DNA of 38,984 nucleotides from IMG/VR virus record IMGVR_UViG_3300036859_000972, positions 1 to 38,984 of that record, one strand, 5' to 3'. A model generated the notes under the pieces. It had not been told where the DNA came from. It saw only the letters and a program-made list of their open reading frames with translations, and ran no database searches. The position numbers were made by a program, and so were the translations under genes. Shown piece by piece: positions 27,419 through 38,802 of this stretch (position 1 is its first letter; every line of letters begins with the position of its first letter). This DNA comes from a virus.

Positions 27419-27644
27419 CGTCGTCTTCCAGGGAATGGACCGACTCCCGCTGCCCCGCCACCCACTCGCACCGCGCGCAAGACAACCCCCCCCGCGGGTC
27501 CCGCACCCAGGCGTGATAGCGGCAGCGCTCTTGGAGATACTCCAGGCGATCGCGCCGGGTCAGCCGGACCATCCCACAGAAGAAGACCGCCACGGCGACG
27601 CTCGCCACGCACCACGCGCCAAGGACCTGGAGGACCGTCGTCAC
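27411..27644 (-). CDS. Small membrane protein with cysteine pair (intact copy)
   Basis: A 77-residue protein: N-terminal membrane helix (VLGAWCVASVAVAVFFCGMV), then a cytoplasmic part with ERCRYHAWVRDPRGGLSCARC, a potential zinc site. The start overlaps the previous stop (ATGA). The 840-bp repeat unit carries only the first 35 codons of this gene, so it is complete only in this left copy. In the right copy it is truncated and fused to another gene. Function unknown. Confidence 0.6.
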   Translation of the reverse strand: MTTVLQVLGAWCVASVAVAVFFCGMVRLTRRDRLEYLQERCRYHAWVRDPRGGLSCARCEWVAGQRESVHSLEDDDA

Positions 27645-27886
27645 GGGCCCCCTCCGATTCCGAGCGGCTGCGGCCCTTCCTCGACGTTGAATCGCGTATG
27701 GTCCTCACGGCATAGTGCCTGCAGCGCGTCGTAGGCCCTCCCGTGCCCGTCCTCCCCATTCAGGGGGAGACCGCCGTTCCGGGCGCCTCGGATCAGACCG
27801 CGCAGGATGCAGATCTCCACCGCCTGGTCCAGATCCGAGAACCCTCCGTTGACCAGGAGGAGTCCGGCCAGGAGGATTGCCCTCAT
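27641..27886 (-). CDS. Small secreted or membrane-anchored protein, copy 1
   Basis: An 81-residue protein with an N-terminal signal-like segment (MRAILLAGLLLVNGGFS), then DLDQAVEICILRGLIRGARN and a polar tail. The ATG at 27886 overlaps the previous stop (ATGA), which fixes the start. An identical copy lies 840 bp to the right. Function unknown. Confidence 0.6.
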   Translation of the reverse strand: MRAILLAGLLLVNGGFSDLDQAVEICILRGLIRGARNGGLPLNGEDGHGRAYDALQALCREDHTRFNVEEGPQPLGIGGGP

Positions 27887-28074
27887 ACAGAGACCTCGGC
27901 GTAGACGGCCGTTTCCGTGCTGATCGGCTTCATGCCAGGGTCCTTGTAGCTCTGCAGGGACCCTCGCTTCCATTCGGGCGCGGCGTCCCGGCAGGCCAGG
28001 ATCTGCTCCTCGATCTCGTCGAAGAACTCCGACCGGTGCGTCTCTCTGCAGAAGATACAGCGCACCTCGTACAT
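27883..28074 (-). CDS. Small protein with CxxC, copy 1
   Basis: A 63-residue protein starting MYEVRCIFCRETHRSEFFDE. The CIFC pair suggests half of a zinc ribbon; a third Cys lies in ILACRD. Its start shares one base with the preceding stop (TGATG). An identical copy is encoded at 28723-28914. It is part of a run of small zinc-ribbon genes. Function unknown. Confidence 0.6.
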   Translation of the reverse strand: MYEVRCIFCRETHRSEFFDEIEEQILACRDAAPEWKRGSLQSYKDPGMKPISTETAVYAEVSV

Positions 28075-28268
28075 CAGTTCCACACCCACCCGCAGGGGCA
28101 CTTGACCGTCTCCATCGGGTCCCGCCGCCGGATCTCCCGCCCGCACTGCGGGCAGAGCCGCACCCACTCCAGGACCCCGTCCATCTCCGCCGTCAAGCGC
28201 CGAATCGTGAGCGTCAGGCTCTCCAGCACTTCTTCCATCGCCTCAAGCCGCGGATCGCGGCCGGTCAT
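28074..28268 (-). CDS. Small zinc-ribbon protein, copy 1
   Basis: A 64-residue protein from the ATG at 28268. A helical N-terminal half (EAMEEVLESLTLTIRRLTAE) is followed by a zinc ribbon, CPQCG...CPCGW. It is identical to the copy at 28914-29108. In this copy the frame is also open upstream and forms the chimeric ORF. It could bind nucleic acid or a protein partner; function unknown. Confidence 0.65.
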   Translation of the reverse strand: MTGRDPRLEAMEEVLESLTLTIRRLTAEMDGVLEWVRLCPQCGREIRRRDPMETVKCPCGWVWN

Positions 28269-28484
28269 CGCCGGGGCTCCGCCGCTTCGCCGCCCTCCGC
28301 CGCACCGCCTTGACCGCCTCGATGCACTTGCGGACCCCCAGGTCATCCGCCGGCCAGACGATCTCCGCCCGGGACCGGTCTCCAGGCGATCGCGCCGGGT
28401 CAGCCGGACCATCCCACAGAAGAAGACCGCCACGGCGACGCTCGCCATGCACCACGCGCCAAGGACCTGGAGGACCGTCGTCAC
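28074..28484 (-). CDS. Chimeric ORF made at the duplication junction
   Basis: A 136-codon frame that begins with the first 35 residues (membrane helix) of the small membrane protein. It crosses the junction at 28381 into about 37 residues of formerly antisense or out-of-frame sequence, and then continues in frame through the whole zinc-ribbon protein of copy 1 (from 28268). It could be translated from the membrane-protein start, giving a membrane-tethered zinc ribbon. The linker is Arg/Ser/Gly-rich and unlikely to fold. This is a product of the duplication, not a conserved gene. Confidence 0.6.
   Translation of the reverse strand: MTTVLQVLGAWCMASVAVAVFFCGMVRLTRRDRLETGPGRRSSGRRMTWGSASASRRSRRCGGGRRSGGAPAMTGRDPRLEAMEEVLESLTLTIRRLTAEMDGVLEWVRLCPQCGREIRRRDPMETVKCPCGWVWN
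28243..28380 (-). pseudogene. 3' fragment of the GemA-like gene (duplication remnant)
   Basis: The last 45 codons of the GemA-like gene (from SRAEIVWPADDLGVRK onward) are repeated here without the 5' part, because the duplication began inside that gene. The frame is open upstream into the junction but lacks the normal start. Confidence 0.85.
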
Positions 28485-28726
28485 GGGCCCCCTCCGATTC
28501 CGAGCGGCTGCGGCCCTTCCTCGACGTTGAATCGCGTATGGTCCTCACGGCATAGTGCCTGCAGCGCGTCGTAGGCCCTCCCGTGCCCGTCCTCCCCATT
28601 CAGGGGGAGACCGCCGTTCCGGGCGCCTCGGATCAGACCGCGCAGGATGCAGATCTCCACCGCCTGGTCCAGATCCGAGAACCCTCCGTTGACCAGGAGG
28701 AGTCCGGCCAGGAGGATTGCCCTCAT
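28481..28726 (-). CDS. Small secreted or membrane-anchored protein, copy 2
   Basis: Identical to the 81-residue protein at 27641-27886, with the same signal-like N-terminus and ATGA overlap. Both copies have intact starts and stops and could be expressed. Function unknown. Confidence 0.6.
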   Translation of the reverse strand: MRAILLAGLLLVNGGFSDLDQAVEICILRGLIRGARNGGLPLNGEDGHGRAYDALQALCREDHTRFNVEEGPQPLGIGGGP

Positions 28727-28914
28727 ACAGAGACCTCGGCGTAGACGGCCGTTTCCGTGCTGATCGGCTTCATGCCAGGGTCCTTGTAGCTCTGCAGGGA
28801 CCCTCGCTTCCATTCGGGCGCGGCGTCCCGGCAGGCCAGGATCTGCTCCTCGATCTCGTCGAAGAACTCCGACCGGTGCGTCTCTCTGCAGAAGATACAG
28901 CGCACCTCGTACAT
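28723..28914 (-). CDS. Small protein with CxxC, copy 2
   Basis: Identical to the 63-residue protein at 27883-28074. The start shares one base with the stop of the zinc-ribbon gene (TGATG), as in the other copy. Function unknown. Confidence 0.6.
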   Translation of the reverse strand: MYEVRCIFCRETHRSEFFDEIEEQILACRDAAPEWKRGSLQSYKDPGMKPISTETAVYAEVSV

Positions 28915-29108
28915 CAGTTCCACACCCACCCGCAGGGGCACTTGACCGTCTCCATCGGGTCCCGCCGCCGGATCTCCCGCCCGCACTGCGGGCAGAGCCG
29001 CACCCACTCCAGGACCCCGTCCATCTCCGCCGTCAAGCGCCGAATCGTGAGCGTCAGGCTCTCCAGCACTTCTTCCATCGCCTCAAGCCGCGGATCGCGG
29101 CCGGTCAT
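28914..29108 (-). CDS. Small zinc-ribbon protein, copy 2
   Basis: Identical 64-residue protein, from the ATG at 29108 inside the end of the GemA-like gene (26-base overlap). This is the ancestral arrangement, since the upstream gene is complete here. Zinc ribbon CPQCG...CPCGW at the C-terminus. Confidence 0.65.
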   Translation of the reverse strand: MTGRDPRLEAMEEVLESLTLTIRRLTAEMDGVLEWVRLCPQCGREIRRRDPMETVKCPCGWVWN

Positions 29109-29685
29109 CGCCGGGGCTCCGCCGCTTCGCCGCCCTCCGCCGCACCGCCTTGACCGCCTCGATGCACTTGCGGACCCCCAGGTCATCCGCCGGCCAGACG
29201 ATCTCCGCCCGGGACCGGTCCGGCCTCCCGAGCGCCCGGTCGAAGACCCCGTTCACGTAGTCGGCGCTCATCCCGGCGACCAGGTTCTTGAGCCGGAAGA
29301 GGGCATCGAGCGTCAGGCGGGAGCCCGGGTGGCCCTCCCGGCGGGGGCGCTTCTGCGGGGCCGGGAGCTTGCCGTCCCGTCCCAGCTCCACCCACTCCCC
29401 CCGCCGCCGCACGCGCCCGAGCGTCTCGGCGTTTAGCTGGTCGAGGACGATGGCCAGCTCCCGCCGGTCCAGCGTCCACGCCCCCCCTCGGCCCGGCGGC
29501 TCGTGGAAGTGCCGGATCGGCCGCCCGAGCGCGATCGCCGTCGTCCCCTCCAGGGCGTCCCGCGCCTGGTCCTCGCTCAACCCGAGGCGCCGGGCCCAGG
29601 TCCAGAATGCGCGGAGCTGCGCCGCCGTCGGCCAGACGCCGGCCGCCCCGGCCACCCCCGCCCCCACCACGCCCGCGCAGCTCAT
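29083..29685 (-). CDS. Putative GemA/Gp16-like regulatory protein
   Basis: A 200-residue protein with PTAAQLRAFWTWARRLGLSE followed by a helical region, and a C-terminal part with RLTLDALFRLKNLVAGM and DDLGVRKCIEAVKAVRRRAA. The start of the conserved part (a Q-L...LGLsedqaR pattern) resembles the Mu gp16/GemA family, which modulates host gene expression and DNA topology. Position in the middle-early region also fits. The family match is moderate. The ATG overlaps the previous stop (ATGA). Confidence 0.45.
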   Translation of the reverse strand: MSCAGVVGAGVAGAAGVWPTAAQLRAFWTWARRLGLSEDQARDALEGTTAIALGRPIRHFHEPPGRGGAWTLDRRELAIVLDQLNAETLGRVRRRGEWVELGRDGKLPAPQKRPRREGHPGSRLTLDALFRLKNLVAGMSADYVNGVFDRALGRPDRSRAEIVWPADDLGVRKCIEAVKAVRRRAAKRRSPGDDRPRSAA

Positions 29686-32515: not shown

Positions 32516-32721
32516 GCCACCACCCCCAGTCGCCTGCCGGAGATCCTCGGCGCCCGCTGGTTCCATCGCGCGATCGCCTCCGCCTTCGTGTCTCCCGTCA
32601 CCATCGGCGCGACGGCGCAGGCTTCGTTGCCACACCAAACCAGCCGTTTGGTTGGCGGCCCGCCGTGCCAGGGTTCGAGCTCCGGTTGGGCTCCGCAGAA
32701 TGGACAGGGCAGCATCTTCAT
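32512..32721 (-). CDS. Lar-like restriction alleviation protein
   Basis: A 69-residue protein with the Lar family signature: LPCPFCGAQPELEP at the start, WCGNEACAVAP in the middle and TKAEAIARWNQRAP at the end. Lar proteins from Rac-type prophages reduce type I restriction of unmodified DNA, apparently by affecting the host enzyme. Its start overlaps the MuB stop (ATGA). The family match is good; activity here is inferred. Confidence 0.8.
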   Translation of the reverse strand: MKMLPCPFCGAQPELEPWHGGPPTKRLVWCGNEACAVAPMVTGDTKAEAIARWNQRAPRISGRRLGVVA

Positions 32722-33740
32722 GCCACCACCCCCGTCGCCTGGCGCAGGTCCTCGAGCGTGGGCGACCGGCCCGTCCCGTTCAGGCGCTTGGCGACCCAGG
32801 TGCAGTGCTTCGTCACGATCCGGAACGACCCGGTCCGGAGGGCTTGCTGGTGCAGGTAGTCCACGCCGGTCCGGTCGAGCTTCGGGAGGATCTGCGTGGC
32901 GATCTCCTTCACCTCTTCCCGCTCCGGCGGCAGTCGAAGATGCCTCCGGAAGCCGACGCGGTCCCGGAGCTGCGCGAAGGGGGCCCGGACCACGCCCCGG
33001 ACGGTCTCCATGCGGCCCCACACCTCCTCGTTGCCGCAGAGGACCAGCCCGATCGCGGTCTCGTCGTGCAGCGCCCGGAGGATATTGACGACGGTCGTGG
33101 TCAGGTGCTGGGCCTCGTCCACGATCAGAAGCCGCCGGGAGCCCTTGAGCGCCACCACGAGCGCGTTGAAGAACGCCCGGCCGGTCGTGGTCTTGGGCCG
33201 CAGCCGGAGGACGGCGACGAGCTCCTCCAGGAGCCCCCGGTCCCCCCGGATGGTCGGGTTGCAGGTCACCAGGATCGCCGAGGGGTGCTGGCGAACGTAG
33301 TTTCGGATGGCCTCGGTCTTGCCCAGGCCGGGGTTGCCGTAGATGACGGAGACGTCGCACGACTCGTGGGCGTGCCGGAGCCCCTGGGTGACCACCTTCG
33401 TGAACCGGTTCTCCCGATAGGCCGGGTCCGGGGGATGGAGGGCCAGGCGCGCCTCCTCGCCGAGGAACGCGGCGACCCGCCGGGCGAGCTTCTCGTTGTC
33501 CCCCTGATATTTGCCCTGGGCGAACCAGGAGATCGTGGCCGCCGACATGCCGATCCGCTTCGCCGCGGCCGTGACCGTCCGCCCGTTGCCGGCCACCTTC
33601 TCCTCGAGCCAGCAGTTGAGGCGGTAGCGGACTTCGGCGATCTCCCCCTCATCCAGGACCCCCGGGACCCGGCCGAGGTCCTGCCGGGCCTCGGCGTCGG
33701 CCGCCTCGACCGGGGTGCGAGCTGTCTGCGATGTCGCCAT
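32718..33740 (-). CDS. MuB-like transposition target ATPase
   Basis: A 340-residue AAA+ ATPase from the ATG at 33740 behind AAGGAGA. Residues about 35-100 carry a helix-turn-helix (VTAAAKRIGMSAATISWFAQ), as in Mu B. Walker A is GNPGLGKT (135-142), Walker B LLIVDEAQH (204-212). Residues 290-340 form the C-terminal helical part. MuB coats target DNA, brings it to the transposase and gives target immunity. Unlike Mu, where A and B are adjacent, three small genes lie between transposase and MuB here. Confidence 0.9.
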   Translation of the reverse strand: MATSQTARTPVEAADAEARQDLGRVPGVLDEGEIAEVRYRLNCWLEEKVAGNGRTVTAAAKRIGMSAATISWFAQGKYQGDNEKLARRVAAFLGEEARLALHPPDPAYRENRFTKVVTQGLRHAHESCDVSVIYGNPGLGKTEAIRNYVRQHPSAILVTCNPTIRGDRGLLEELVAVLRLRPKTTTGRAFFNALVVALKGSRRLLIVDEAQHLTTTVVNILRALHDETAIGLVLCGNEEVWGRMETVRGVVRAPFAQLRDRVGFRRHLRLPPEREEVKEIATQILPKLDRTGVDYLHQQALRTGSFRIVTKHCTWVAKRLNGTGRSPTLEDLRQATGVVA

Positions 33741-33898: not shown

Positions 33899-34052
33899 GG
33901 AGGACTCCCATCCAGAGCCGGTACAGGCCGGCGACGAGGATCCAGAAGAGCAGCGCCCAGGTCAGGCCCAGGACCAGAACGACCGGGTCGCCCGGCCCAG
34001 GCGGGCTGCACGGCTTCCACAGTGGGCAGGCGGCCCAGGTCGCTGGGCTCAT
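33885..34052 (-). CDS. Very small membrane protein
   Basis: A 55-residue protein: a Cys/Pro-rich start, then one membrane helix (VVLVLGLTWALLFWILVAGL) and a basic tail. The ATG at 34052 overlaps the previous stop (ATGA). Function unknown. Confidence 0.6.
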   Translation of the reverse strand: MSPATWAACPLWKPCSPPGPGDPVVLVLGLTWALLFWILVAGLYRLWMGVLRGRM

Positions 34053-34243
34053 CGCGTGTAGATCCTCTGGATCGCGCATCCGTTCCCGACCGTGATGATC
34101 TGGTCCCGCTCCCGCAGCACGGCACAGTCGCCCGGGCCGAGCCGCGTCACGGCGGCCGCGCAGCCCAGGAGGGCGGCCAGGATAGCCCCGACGAGCAACC
34201 CCCACGGGAACAGGAGCGAGGCGAACCACAGGACGCGCTTCAT
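34049..34243 (-). CDS. Small lipoprotein-like or membrane protein
   Basis: A 64-residue protein with a hydrophobic N-terminus (LWFASLLFPWGLLVGAILAA) leading to LLGC, a good lipobox. The mature part is about 36 residues with two more Cys. The ATG overlaps the transposase stop (ATGA). Possible roles, such as superinfection exclusion, are guesses. Confidence 0.6.
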   Translation of the reverse strand: MKRVLWFASLLFPWGLLVGAILAALLGCAAAVTRLGPGDCAVLRERDQIITVGNGCAIQRIYTR

Positions 34244-36567
34244 CGTTGCCTCCGTGCCTTCGCCGGCCGGGCCGGCAGCTCGTCAGCCACGACCATCTGG
34301 GCGCGGTCGTAGTCGGAGATCCCATCGGGCTCGGGCCCTATTGGCTCCGCGGCGAGCTCGTCCAGGACCAGGTCCCGTGGATCTGCCAGGGGTGGCGGGA
34401 GCGCCTTGGCCGTCCCAGCCGCCTCCACGGCCTTGAGGGCCTTCGCCGCCTTTCGGAACGGCGTCCGGAGCGGGCGCACGACGGCCGGTTTCGGGTCCGG
34501 CGCCGGCGCCGGCGCGGCGGCCAGCATCGCCGGGAGCGCCGCCCGCAGCACGTCATCCGGCTGGGCCGCCTGCGCCGTCAGCTCCTCCCGCCAGGCCTTG
34601 GCGAGGCGCGACCGCCCCTGCTTCAGCCGCTCGGCCTTCCGGATCGCCTCCTGGCCCGCCCCGTAGGCGAGCAGCTCGTCCCGCTCGGCCACCCCGACGA
34701 ACTCGTCCTGAGCCGTGAACAGCCAGAGCCGGCCGGCGACGTCCTGGTCGTAGCGCCCGTAGACCTCGGTGGGCGCCCCGGGCTCCTGGAGCGCCGGGCA
34801 GCTCCAGCGCCGGCGCGCGAACTCCACCGCGCCGCGGCGAACGGCCAGCAGCTTCGTCGTCTTCATGAGGAGGAGCTTCAGCTCCTCATCCGTCGCCGTC
34901 CGATGGACGTAGCCAGGGGCCAGGACCCCCGCCTGCCACACATCAAGCGGGGCTGCGTTGTCCAGGCCCCGGGCCTCCGACGGCTCCACGTTCGCGATCC
35001 GCTCGACGTACAGGCCGTAGGCGATCCCCACCTGCTCGAGCGTGGGGATGTCCGCCGGCCGCTGGAGCACGGCCGGCAGGTCCTCGGGCTTGTGCGCGGC
35101 ATCCCGGCCGCAGTAGGTCGGGAACCACTTGTCGAACTGGGTGTGGGCGGTCCCGAACCACCGTTCGATGAGGCGGGACTGCGGGTTGCCAGGGCGGCTG
35201 AAGTGGGGGACCACCTGGAGGTGGGCGAGCAGCGACTCGACCCGCACCTCGTCCAGGCGGACCCGGATCCGGCGATGGCCCCCCTCGGGCGCGGTCGAGG
35301 TGAAGTCGCGCCCGTTGTCCATATAGACGTGCCCAGGGATCCCGCCCCGCCGGATCCCGCGGGCCAGCGCCAGGAGGATCGTGTCCTGGGAGGGCGTGGC
35401 CGCCACGCACCAGCCCAGGCGCCGGCGGGAGCGGATGTCCATCCACTCCGTGAGCCACGGCCTCCCGAGCCGCCCGTCCGGCAGCCGGCAGACCAGGTCG
35501 AACAGCATATGGTCCGTCACCCACCACTCATTGACCGCCAGCGTGGTGGGATCCCGCTCGATGTAGGGCCGGTAGCGGGCCGCCCAGGCCCGCTCCCCCT
35601 CCCGATGCCGGACGCGGACCTCCTCCGGGATCGCCTGGAGGAGCCGGAGGAAGGCGCGGTAATCGGGGAGGACGGAGGTCGGCTCGCCCCGCCCGCGCAG
35701 GAGCGCCGCCGTCGCCCGGTAGCACTCCTTGGCCGAGAGCTGGTGGGTGTTCAGGTAGAGCCCGAGGAAGCCGCTCTTGGCCGGCTCCGGGATCGCCGCG
35801 TGCGCGGGGCCCCCGTCCGCCCGCCGGGCGAGCCGCGCATCGAGAAGGGCCGCCGGGTGCCCGTCCGTCTCCCGGGCGAAGGCGATCCATCTATAGAGAG
35901 TCCCCAACGACCGAGGGATCCGGTCTCGCTCTTCGGCCACCCGGGTCGCATCGCCGCCTCCTCCCGCCGCCCGCCTGTCCGTGAGGAACTGCGCGAGCAG
36001 CGCCGCCCGTTCCTTCTTCCCATTCCGGTTCGTCGCGGCGTAGGCCTCCGCCTCCCGCAGCAGGCCGAGGCGCGCCGCCGCCCGCGCCCGCTCGGCCTCC
36101 GTTGCCGCATCCCAGCGCGCGGCGAGAGAGGGGGGGACCGGTGGCACGAGCACCGCCAACGGTCTCGCAGCATCGGCGATCTCTGGAAGGCCCGCCCCCC
36201 CGGCGGGATCCTCCCCCGGCCCTATAGCATCTGCTATAGAAGGTTGAATACGGCATGGCGGAGAGGCCGACACCCCAGTGCCCCGGGGGACTACATCCCC
36301 GGCTCGAGGTTCCTCCGCCCGGGCGCCGCAGCCCAGACCCTCAGCTGGATCACCGGGCCCAGCGGCTACTACCTGCTCCTGTTCTGGACCCTCACCAGTC
36401 GGCCTCGGGTGTTCCAAAGGCGAGCCCACCAAGCCGTTCTGGAGTCCCGGAGGACTTCCACTCTCCAGATGTGCAGCCTCCGGCGTTCCGACCTGCCGGG
36501 CCCGCCACTTCTCCTGCGCCTCCACCGGCAACGCCGCCAGCGGGATCTTCACTCGCGACATATTCAT
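34240..36567 (-). CDS. MuA-like DDE transposase, catalytic part
   Basis: A 775-residue transposase from the ATG at 36567, which shares a base with the stop of the helix-turn-helix ORF (TGATG). It begins MNMSRVKIPLAALPVEAQEKW, the usual linker just after the N-terminal DNA-binding domain of MuA-like proteins. Then comes a 110-residue Gly/Pro/Glu-rich linker, helical DNA-binding domains (about 150-340) and the catalytic core: D352 (TDHML), D417 (MDNGRDF) and E468 (LIERWF). A beta-barrel and a basic C-terminal tail follow, where MuA contacts MuB. The N-terminal DNA-binding domain is missing from this frame. Confidence 0.9.
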   Translation of the reverse strand: MNMSRVKIPLAALPVEAQEKWRARQVGTPEAAHLESGSPPGLQNGLVGSPLEHPRPTGEGPEQEQVVAAGPGDPAEGLGCGARAEEPRAGDVVPRGTGVSASPPCRIQPSIADAIGPGEDPAGGAGLPEIADAARPLAVLVPPVPPSLAARWDAATEAERARAAARLGLLREAEAYAATNRNGKKERAALLAQFLTDRRAAGGGGDATRVAEERDRIPRSLGTLYRWIAFARETDGHPAALLDARLARRADGGPAHAAIPEPAKSGFLGLYLNTHQLSAKECYRATAALLRGRGEPTSVLPDYRAFLRLLQAIPEEVRVRHREGERAWAARYRPYIERDPTTLAVNEWWVTDHMLFDLVCRLPDGRLGRPWLTEWMDIRSRRRLGWCVAATPSQDTILLALARGIRRGGIPGHVYMDNGRDFTSTAPEGGHRRIRVRLDEVRVESLLAHLQVVPHFSRPGNPQSRLIERWFGTAHTQFDKWFPTYCGRDAAHKPEDLPAVLQRPADIPTLEQVGIAYGLYVERIANVEPSEARGLDNAAPLDVWQAGVLAPGYVHRTATDEELKLLLMKTTKLLAVRRGAVEFARRRWSCPALQEPGAPTEVYGRYDQDVAGRLWLFTAQDEFVGVAERDELLAYGAGQEAIRKAERLKQGRSRLAKAWREELTAQAAQPDDVLRAALPAMLAAAPAPAPDPKPAVVRPLRTPFRKAAKALKAVEAAGTAKALPPPLADPRDLVLDELAAEPIGPEPDGISDYDRAQMVVADELPARPAKARRQR
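36222..36239. promoter_or_regulatory. AT-rich palindrome inside the transposase gene
   Basis: CTATAGCA and TGCTATAG form a perfect 8-bp inverted repeat around two bases, in otherwise very GC-rich DNA. It lies in the low-complexity linker part of the transposase gene. It could be a protein-binding site such as an enhancer or operator. Function not known. Confidence 0.4.
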
Positions 36568-36770
36568 CAGTCCGGCTTTTTCGATTTGATATACTTGCCA
36601 CGAACCCGCTCTTGAGCGACCGTTCTGGCGGGCATCTTTCCAGATTGAACCCAGCGCTGTACCGTTCTTGGAGTCACGCCCATCAGTTCGGCGACCTCCG
36701 CCACCGTCAGCCACGCTTCGCTGGCGCTGTGGCATTCTTTGCCCTCGAGTGGAAATCGGTCATCCTTCAC
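36567..36770 (-). CDS. N-terminal helix-turn-helix domain of the transposase, separate frame
   Basis: A 67-residue protein starting with GTG at 36770 (GTGA overlap with the upstream stop). It has WLTVAEVAELMGVTPRTVQR then WVQSGKMPARTV, a MerR/excisionase-like winged helix of the kind at the N-terminus of many MuA-like transposases. The end (GKYIKSKK) followed by the first residues of the next ORF reads as one normal transposase if the ribosome slips -1 on GAAAAAG at 36576-36582. Alone it could act as a competitor or regulator at the phage ends. Confidence 0.75.
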   Translation of the reverse strand: MKDDRFPLEGKECHSASEAWLTVAEVAELMGVTPRTVQRWVQSGKMPARTVAQERVRGKYIKSKKPD

Positions 36771-37264
36771 TTCTGGCCACCACCGACGAGCGCCGCGATC
36801 GCCTGCATCGCCTCGTAGGCTTCGCGGTCGATCTCCGCCCGCTCCCTGGGCGTGACCTCCCCATCGGCCAACGCCTTGGAATAGACCGACAGGAATTCCC
36901 CGAATTCCCGGCAGACCTTCGCGGTGGAGATAACCAGGTCAAAATGAGACCGCCCGTCCTCCGGGACTTGGATGGCGATCCGCCCGACCCGGGCCTCTAG
37001 GGCATCGAGAATGGCCGTGTTGCCAGTGAGGAGTGTGAGCGGGACGATAAGGCTTGCCGGCAGCCGGCGTGAGGCATCGGATGGGTTGTGTGGGTCGTAG
37101 GTGTAGGACTGGAGGGTCTGCCGGGGGATCCCGATCCGCTCGGCGACCTCCTGGGCCGTGAGGCCCGAGTCCTCCAGGACGCGTCGGATCGCCTCCGCGA
37201 GCGTGGCGGTCACTGGGCCGCGTGGCGGGAGCGAGGAGGACGCTACTTGCCGGGGTTTGGTCAA
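36767..37264 (-). CDS. CII-like phage regulatory protein
   Basis: A 165-residue protein. The start may be TTG at 37264 or GTG at 37213. An N-terminal helix-turn-helix (LTAQEVAERIGIPRQTLQSY) is followed by a helical C-terminal domain with LTLLTGNTAILDALEARVG and FDLVISTAKVCREFGEFLSV. This layout matches proteins annotated as phage regulatory CII family in transposable and P2-like phages. It lies just after the Ner-like gene, so it is probably an early regulator. It lacks a strong ribosome-binding site. Confidence 0.7.
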   Translation of the reverse strand: MTKPRQVASSSLPPRGPVTATLAEAIRRVLEDSGLTAQEVAERIGIPRQTLQSYTYDPHNPSDASRRLPASLIVPLTLLTGNTAILDALEARVGRIAIQVPEDGRSHFDLVISTAKVCREFGEFLSVYSKALADGEVTPRERAEIDREAYEAMQAIAALVGGGQK

Positions 37265-38593: not shown

Positions 38594-38802
38594 GAAACCT
38601 GGTTCCAACCCCATCATATAGTAGAAGGGAGCACTGTGGCATTTGGAACCCAACGCCGTGCGACAAGCCGTGCGACAAGCCGTGCGACACCGTGCGACAA
38701 TGCCACCAGCAAAACCGTGGCTCCACGCTGTTTCATGTGGATCTTTTAGGCTTCTCTCACGGGCCTTTATAGGCCCCAAAAGGCCGCCGTAGCCCACCCT
38801 AA
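38594..38802. other. Non-coding left-end region with repeats
   Basis: No gene is supported here. It contains an inverted repeat GGTTCCAA/TTGGAACC (38601-38608 and 38643-38650), a block of short tandem repeats (38655-38700), and a nested inverted repeat (38741-38807). The short ORFs in this stretch are products of the repeats. Confidence 0.6.
38655..38700. repeat. Four tandem copies of (G)CCGTGCGACA(A)
   Basis: The unit GCCGTGCGACAA occurs at 38655-38666 and 38667-38678, then GCCGTGCGACA at 38679-38689 and CCGTGCGACAA at 38690-38700. The regular 11-12 bp period places the copies on one helix face, as in protein-binding iterons. Confidence 0.85.

Follow-up and report, generated by a model that had tools for sequence, protein, structure and literature searches.

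A MuA-type transposase that may be divided over two stop-start-linked cistrons in a Mu-like phage

The transposase locus of an uncultured Mu-like phage consists of two open reading frames (ORFs) that meet at a domain boundary. In the window (the whole stretch of 38,984 bases that was analysed, which is the record IMGVR_UViG_3300036859_000972) an ORF encoding a small helix-turn-helix (HTH) protein directly precedes, in another frame, the ORF of a MuA-type transposase core. The stop codon of the first overlaps the start codon of the second, and the two halves fit a single family model. We propose, with a probability of roughly 0.48, that a MuA-type transposase has been split here at a domain boundary into two cistrons that are linked by termination-reinitiation. 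The locus would then be an unusual, as yet unproven, variant of the MuA-type transposase. The main rival explanation is a single-base indel, either real or made by the assembly.

The transposase locus and its surroundings

The window carries a set of Mu-like phage genes, all on the minus strand, which encode a terminase, a portal protein, a head protease, a MuB-like ATPase and the MuA-type transposase. The features that matter for the present analysis are the following.

32718..33740, minus strand: MuB-like AAA+ transposition protein (phrog_296, DNA transposition protein, E 7.8e-59)
34049..34243, minus strand: small ORF 3' of the transposase, the two being joined by an ATGA overlap
34240..36567, minus strand: transposase core ORF, 775 aa, ATG start (Pfam, phrog_310, MuA structure 4fcy)
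36552..36604, minus strand: imperfect hairpin across the junction (-15.8 kcal/mol), whose loop contains AAAAAG and whose 3' arm contains the core ATG
36553..36590, minus strand: junction segment of 38 nt, comprising the HTH tail, the stop, the core start and MNMSR (delimited by the ends of the family-model matches)
36565..36569, minus strand: TGATG, in which the HTH stop shares its A with the core ATG (read from the sequence)
36567..36770, minus strand: HTH ORF, 67 aa, GTG start, TGA stop (HTH_17/MerR-like, Pfam HTH_17, E 4.3e-11)
36576..36582, minus strand: GAAAAAG, proposed slip site (zero frame TCG AAA AAG), containing the tetramer A_AA.G
36767..37264, minus strand: upstream gene for a CII-like transcriptional activator (phrog_101, E 7.7e-23)

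The HTH ORF ends with AAA TCG AAA AAG CCG GAC TGA, and what the initial annotation had read from the letters of the junction was found to be correct. The frames of the two ORFs differ by -1, the core ATG at 36567 lying in the -1 frame relative to the HTH ORF; GAAAAAG is present at 36582-36576 on the minus strand; the zero frame stops two codons past the AAG (CCG GAC TGA); the stop and the core ATG together form TGATG at 36569-36565; and a -1 slip would yield an uninterrupted product of 843 residues (65 + 3 + 775). The frame favoured by codon preference changes near 36590-36570 from that of the HTH ORF to that of the core, the HTH ORF being short and low in GC3.

Short gene overlaps are common in the phage: the upstream CII-like gene has its own TGA overlapping the GTG start of the HTH ORF (GTGA), and an ATGA follows just after the core. 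The start of the MuB-like gene was picked on the basis of coding score and Shine-Dalgarno (SD) sequence. Elsewhere in the window an 840-bp near-perfect tandem duplication was observed (27541-28380 and 28381-29220), with a single difference between the copies and with three small minus-strand ORFs present twice; it represents either a recent duplication or an assembly artefact. Ahead of the early genes, at 38656-38700, four CCGTGCGACAA repeats are found at a spacing of 10-12 nt (chance expectation 0.55 within one mismatch), which are candidate operator or transposase-binding sites. A megablast search with the first 20 kb of the window against phage records gave no match.

Relation of the two ORFs to the MuA family

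The core ORF contains, in this order, the linker motif IPLAALPVEAQ, a low-complexity insert of ~110 aa, the I-beta/I-gamma end-binding region, the DDE catalytic domain and the Mu C-terminal domain. It matches the phrog_310 transposase (E 1e-96), the Pfam families DDE_2, rve and HTH_Tnp_Mu_2 (the last with 21.9 bits at a cutoff of 20.5; Mu-transpos_C stays under its cutoff) and, at the profile level, the MuA structures 4fcy and 1bcm. The end-binding domain that precedes the catalytic core shows profile matches to 4fcy and 2ezh. The DDE triad of the RNase H-like core (D352, D417 and E468 of the core ORF) is invariant in alignment A1, and a MuB-like AAA+ gene (phrog_296), another characteristic of the MuA family, is present as a neighbour. 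The insert of ~110 residues, which at about residues 20-140 of the core (36510-36150) separates the SLP motif from the end-binding domain, is missing in distant relatives and partly common to a relative with 67% identity.

The 67-aa product of the upstream ORF is a DNA-binding HTH protein, as the initial annotation had recognized, but its Pfam type is HTH_17/MerR-like, which may or may not correspond to the winged helix of Mu. It scores 43 bits with Pfam HTH_17 versus 31 bits with the transposase model. Free-standing HTH_17 regulators and transposase heads are equally similar to it; its closest viral matches are HTH regulators encoded on their own, and the flanking DNA examined around them contains no transposase.

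Relatives of the transposase were gathered from phages, plasmids, viral contigs and genomes, and a model of the whole transposase was built. In 194 of the 234 related ORFs (a set in which some ORFs are repeat copies from one contig) a single frame encodes both HTH and core, the others being truncated, without a detectable head, or broken elsewhere. An HTH in another frame at the junction was observed only in the window and in no other of the 234. In the N-terminal part of the model the HTH of the window covers columns 1-35 and the core frame columns 35-59, so that the 38-nt junction segment runs from a Y (column 35, HTH half) to a V (column 35, core half). Since the matches meet at one column, the ORFs appear to be two halves of one ancestral architecture, and as a pair they possess the complete set of domains. 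The initial annotation had already regarded the pair as two parts of one MuA-like architecture, a view that is supported by Pfam, by phrog_310 and by the model columns; judged by these matches, the HTH ORF looks like the N-terminal part.

The order of HTH, IPLxxLPxEAQ, end-binding, DDE and C-terminal domains is that of the MuA family (phrog_310; BalMu-1 A, DMS3 A, phage Mu A), as is the MuB-like ATPase gene that follows in the same operon. In these relatives one frame runs through both HTH and core, whereas the HTH of the window is a separate ORF in another frame. The window thus lacks the fused same-frame head that is usual in MuA proteins. However, the head is missing in some accepted members, and an in-frame head is therefore no strict requirement for membership.

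Scans of viral and genome contigs yielded a single close relative, IMGVR_UViG_3300018063_000463, which is 67% identical at the amino acid level in the core; it is truncated within the core ORF, and the junction region is absent from its contig. Targeted scans of viral and genome contigs found no further close relative. The alignment of relatives, by which the initial annotation would have judged whether the split is conserved, displays one continuous frame in the distant relatives (25-35% identical), but reaches the lone close relative within the core only.

DMS3, whose annotated transposase excludes the head, was considered as a parallel split and rejected: the start has simply been called late, and the HTH head, MNEWFSAQKLVGLPG..., is encoded in frame upstream of it (L004:2016-2175). 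The related loci L036 and L185 were likewise rejected as instances of the same split, their breaks being mid-protein and away from this junction. In L036 a change of frame interrupts the transposase ORF immediately ahead of the catalytic domain (L036:3956-4046). The Mu-like transposases of L136, L144 and L151-L153 begin at the I-beta-like region; an HTH head was sought in the other frames upstream of them and none was detected nearby.

Translation of the core

Two kinds of coupling junction are standard, one of them being the TGATG overlap (PMC6728339). The locus has the layout of the ATGA/TGATG termination-reinitiation pairs described there, i.e. a 1-nt stop-start overlap within an operon that contains other short overlaps. 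The first cistron would give rise to the 67-aa HTH protein and the second to the 775-aa core with its own end-binding, catalytic and C-terminal domains. Having read the HTH ORF to its stop within TGATG, ribosomes would restart at the ATG that overlaps it, by which the output of the core would be tied to translation of the HTH ORF. Unlike in the known pairs, however, the overlap is preceded by a very weak SD sequence: of ~30 phage starts checked, none has weaker SD pairing than the core ATG (-3.2 kcal/mol), and in E. coli loss of the SD often lowers reinitiation and can abolish it (PMC6728339). The core start is therefore probably not used alone, which implies that it either needs the ribosomes of the HTH ORF or is no start at all. 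Reinitiation, mentioned as an alternative in the initial annotation, is the reading that we favour, with the TGATG speaking for it and the weak SD against it.

The hairpin across the junction would hold the core start, and translation of the HTH ORF may open it. Its stability (z -2.4 in the most favourable of several windows, picked after the fact; lowest 4-10% of the operon windows) constitutes weak evidence. The position of the core ATG in the 3' arm and of the proposed slip site in the loop fits sequestration of the start site more than slippage, and with the slip site there the hairpin can have no role as a downstream block.

In the main rival explanation the gene encodes an ordinary single-frame transposase that has suffered a one-base loss (or a two-base gain), through an assembly or sequencing error or through a real recent mutation, and there is no split protein. 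This seems doubtful to us, although several observations agree with it: the HTH is in the same frame in 194 of the 234 related ORFs, the core ATG is without a useful SD, frame breaks are known elsewhere in related transposases (L036, L185), and the record has another oddity in the form of the 840-bp near-perfect tandem duplication. Against an indel, the other long genes that were checked are open, and the TGATG would have to be a coincidence, such a stop-start junction arising in only 2.8% of the single-base deletions that were simulated in relatives. If the record is a short-read assembly, a homopolymer error at a run of five A's would also be uncommon.

The length of the linker also bears on this point. 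In the 153 in-frame relatives, which are only 25-35% identical to the window transposase, the stretch that separates the recognition helix and the SLP motif is 10-22 residues long, and most often 17. A hand count on the same alignment gives 17 for the window if the matching ends are joined directly, and 31 for the -1 fusion or restored frame, whereas the relatives do not exceed 22; the surplus corresponds to the 38-nt junction segment. These lengths would fit better with an evolved gene boundary than with a single missing base, but the argument is softened by the fact that the lineage has also lengthened the next linker by ~110 aa.

The initial annotation had favoured a programmed -1 ribosomal frameshift at GAAAAAG. 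In this explanation a minority of the ribosomes would produce the 843-aa fusion and the rest the 67-aa HTH protein. We regard this as improbable, and as weakly supported. The arrangement is indeed reminiscent of OrfA-OrfB of the IS3/IS1 elements, in which a DDE ORF in the -1 frame comes after an HTH ORF that has an A-rich site close to its stop: AAA AAG is in frame, two codons 5' of the stop, the core ORF is in the right frame and without a good start of its own, and no stop interrupts the -1 frame in the overlap. The core frame is in fact open far 5' of its ATG (839 codons from stop to stop), and the position of a slip is therefore not set by stops. AAAAAG is rare in the GC-rich window, with four sites on both strands of the 39 kb. 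The local stretch is A-rich, however, and the chance of the motif in the last 12 codons is ~1-2% (a hand estimate from composition), a figure that rises once all slip motifs are counted.

Some IS elements make use of A_AA.G, of all tetramers the one that shifts most readily in E. coli, but such tetramers are barely shifty in that organism without a strong stimulator (PMC4066793). No SD-like stimulator was found in the 30 nt upstream of the slip site, and the RNA 3' of it does not fold more stably than shuffled sequences (z 0.14 and 0.16, folding without pseudoknots). Moreover, GAAAAAG is no true X_XXY_YYZ heptamer, since the Lys tRNA in the P-site would need to re-pair on GAA, and a canonical heptamer is absent from the HTH ORF. 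What had been described as a near-IS3 slip site is thus only an A_AA.G tetramer, and unlike in IS3/IS1 there is no heptamer, SD stimulator or downstream structure, while the core belongs to the MuA family. Furthermore, the fusion linker of 31 residues falls outside the range of 10-22 in the 153 relatives, and the split was found in no relative. No description of frameshifting in a Mu-like transposase was found in the literature consulted, the frameshifts described there for such phages being in tail genes. The claim of a programmed slip is not supported by these findings, and the locus looks more like two stop-start-linked genes.

A last explanation, in which an excisionase- or regulator-type gene unrelated to the transposase by chance precedes a head-less core, is very unlikely. 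The higher score of the HTH ORF with Pfam HTH_17 (43 versus 31 bits), the free-standing HTH regulators without nearby transposase among its closest viral matches and the existence of core-only transposases are in line with it, but the HTH match stops at the exact model column where the core match starts, and the linker motif found after the HTH in relatives is still present in the core.

A possible separation of the transposase head from its core

In Mu the enhancer-binding head and the DNA-cutting body form one chain, and decades of work have dealt with the way in which the head directs assembly. Enhancer binding is the function of the I-alpha head, and MuA tolerates insertions in its I-alpha domain in an enhancer-free assay (PMC3362531); the head was omitted from the MuA crystal structure (PMC3562280). 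In the transposable prophages of Leptospira the enhancer-binding domain is missing and transposition is nevertheless supported (PMC8705779). Taken together with the head-less relatives, these observations make a detached head mechanistically possible. Like the head-less TnpA proteins (Leptospira prophages, PMC8705779; L136, L144, L151-153), the core in the window starts from the end-binding domains and has no fused head. Unlike those proteins, it is directly preceded by a fitting HTH with a TGATG overlap.

If the transposase is indeed produced from two coupled cistrons, the core would act without a covalent enhancer-binding domain, as in the head-less Mu-like relatives, and the separate HTH protein may function in trans at an enhancer or operator, or as an early regulator. 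Such a two-piece enzyme would regulate itself in trans and not via one polypeptide. We further suggest, tentatively, that the enhancer-binding head is produced on its own, and that the stop-start coupling, perhaps with some -1 slippage, determines at the ribosome how much head there is relative to core (or to fused enzyme).

Should the gene merely be broken or misread, the locus would be of little importance beyond its annotation. If the split is real, the natural separation of head and body would show a transposase head that acts in trans or has turned into a regulator, and the phage would offer a simple system for testing the function of the head in trans.
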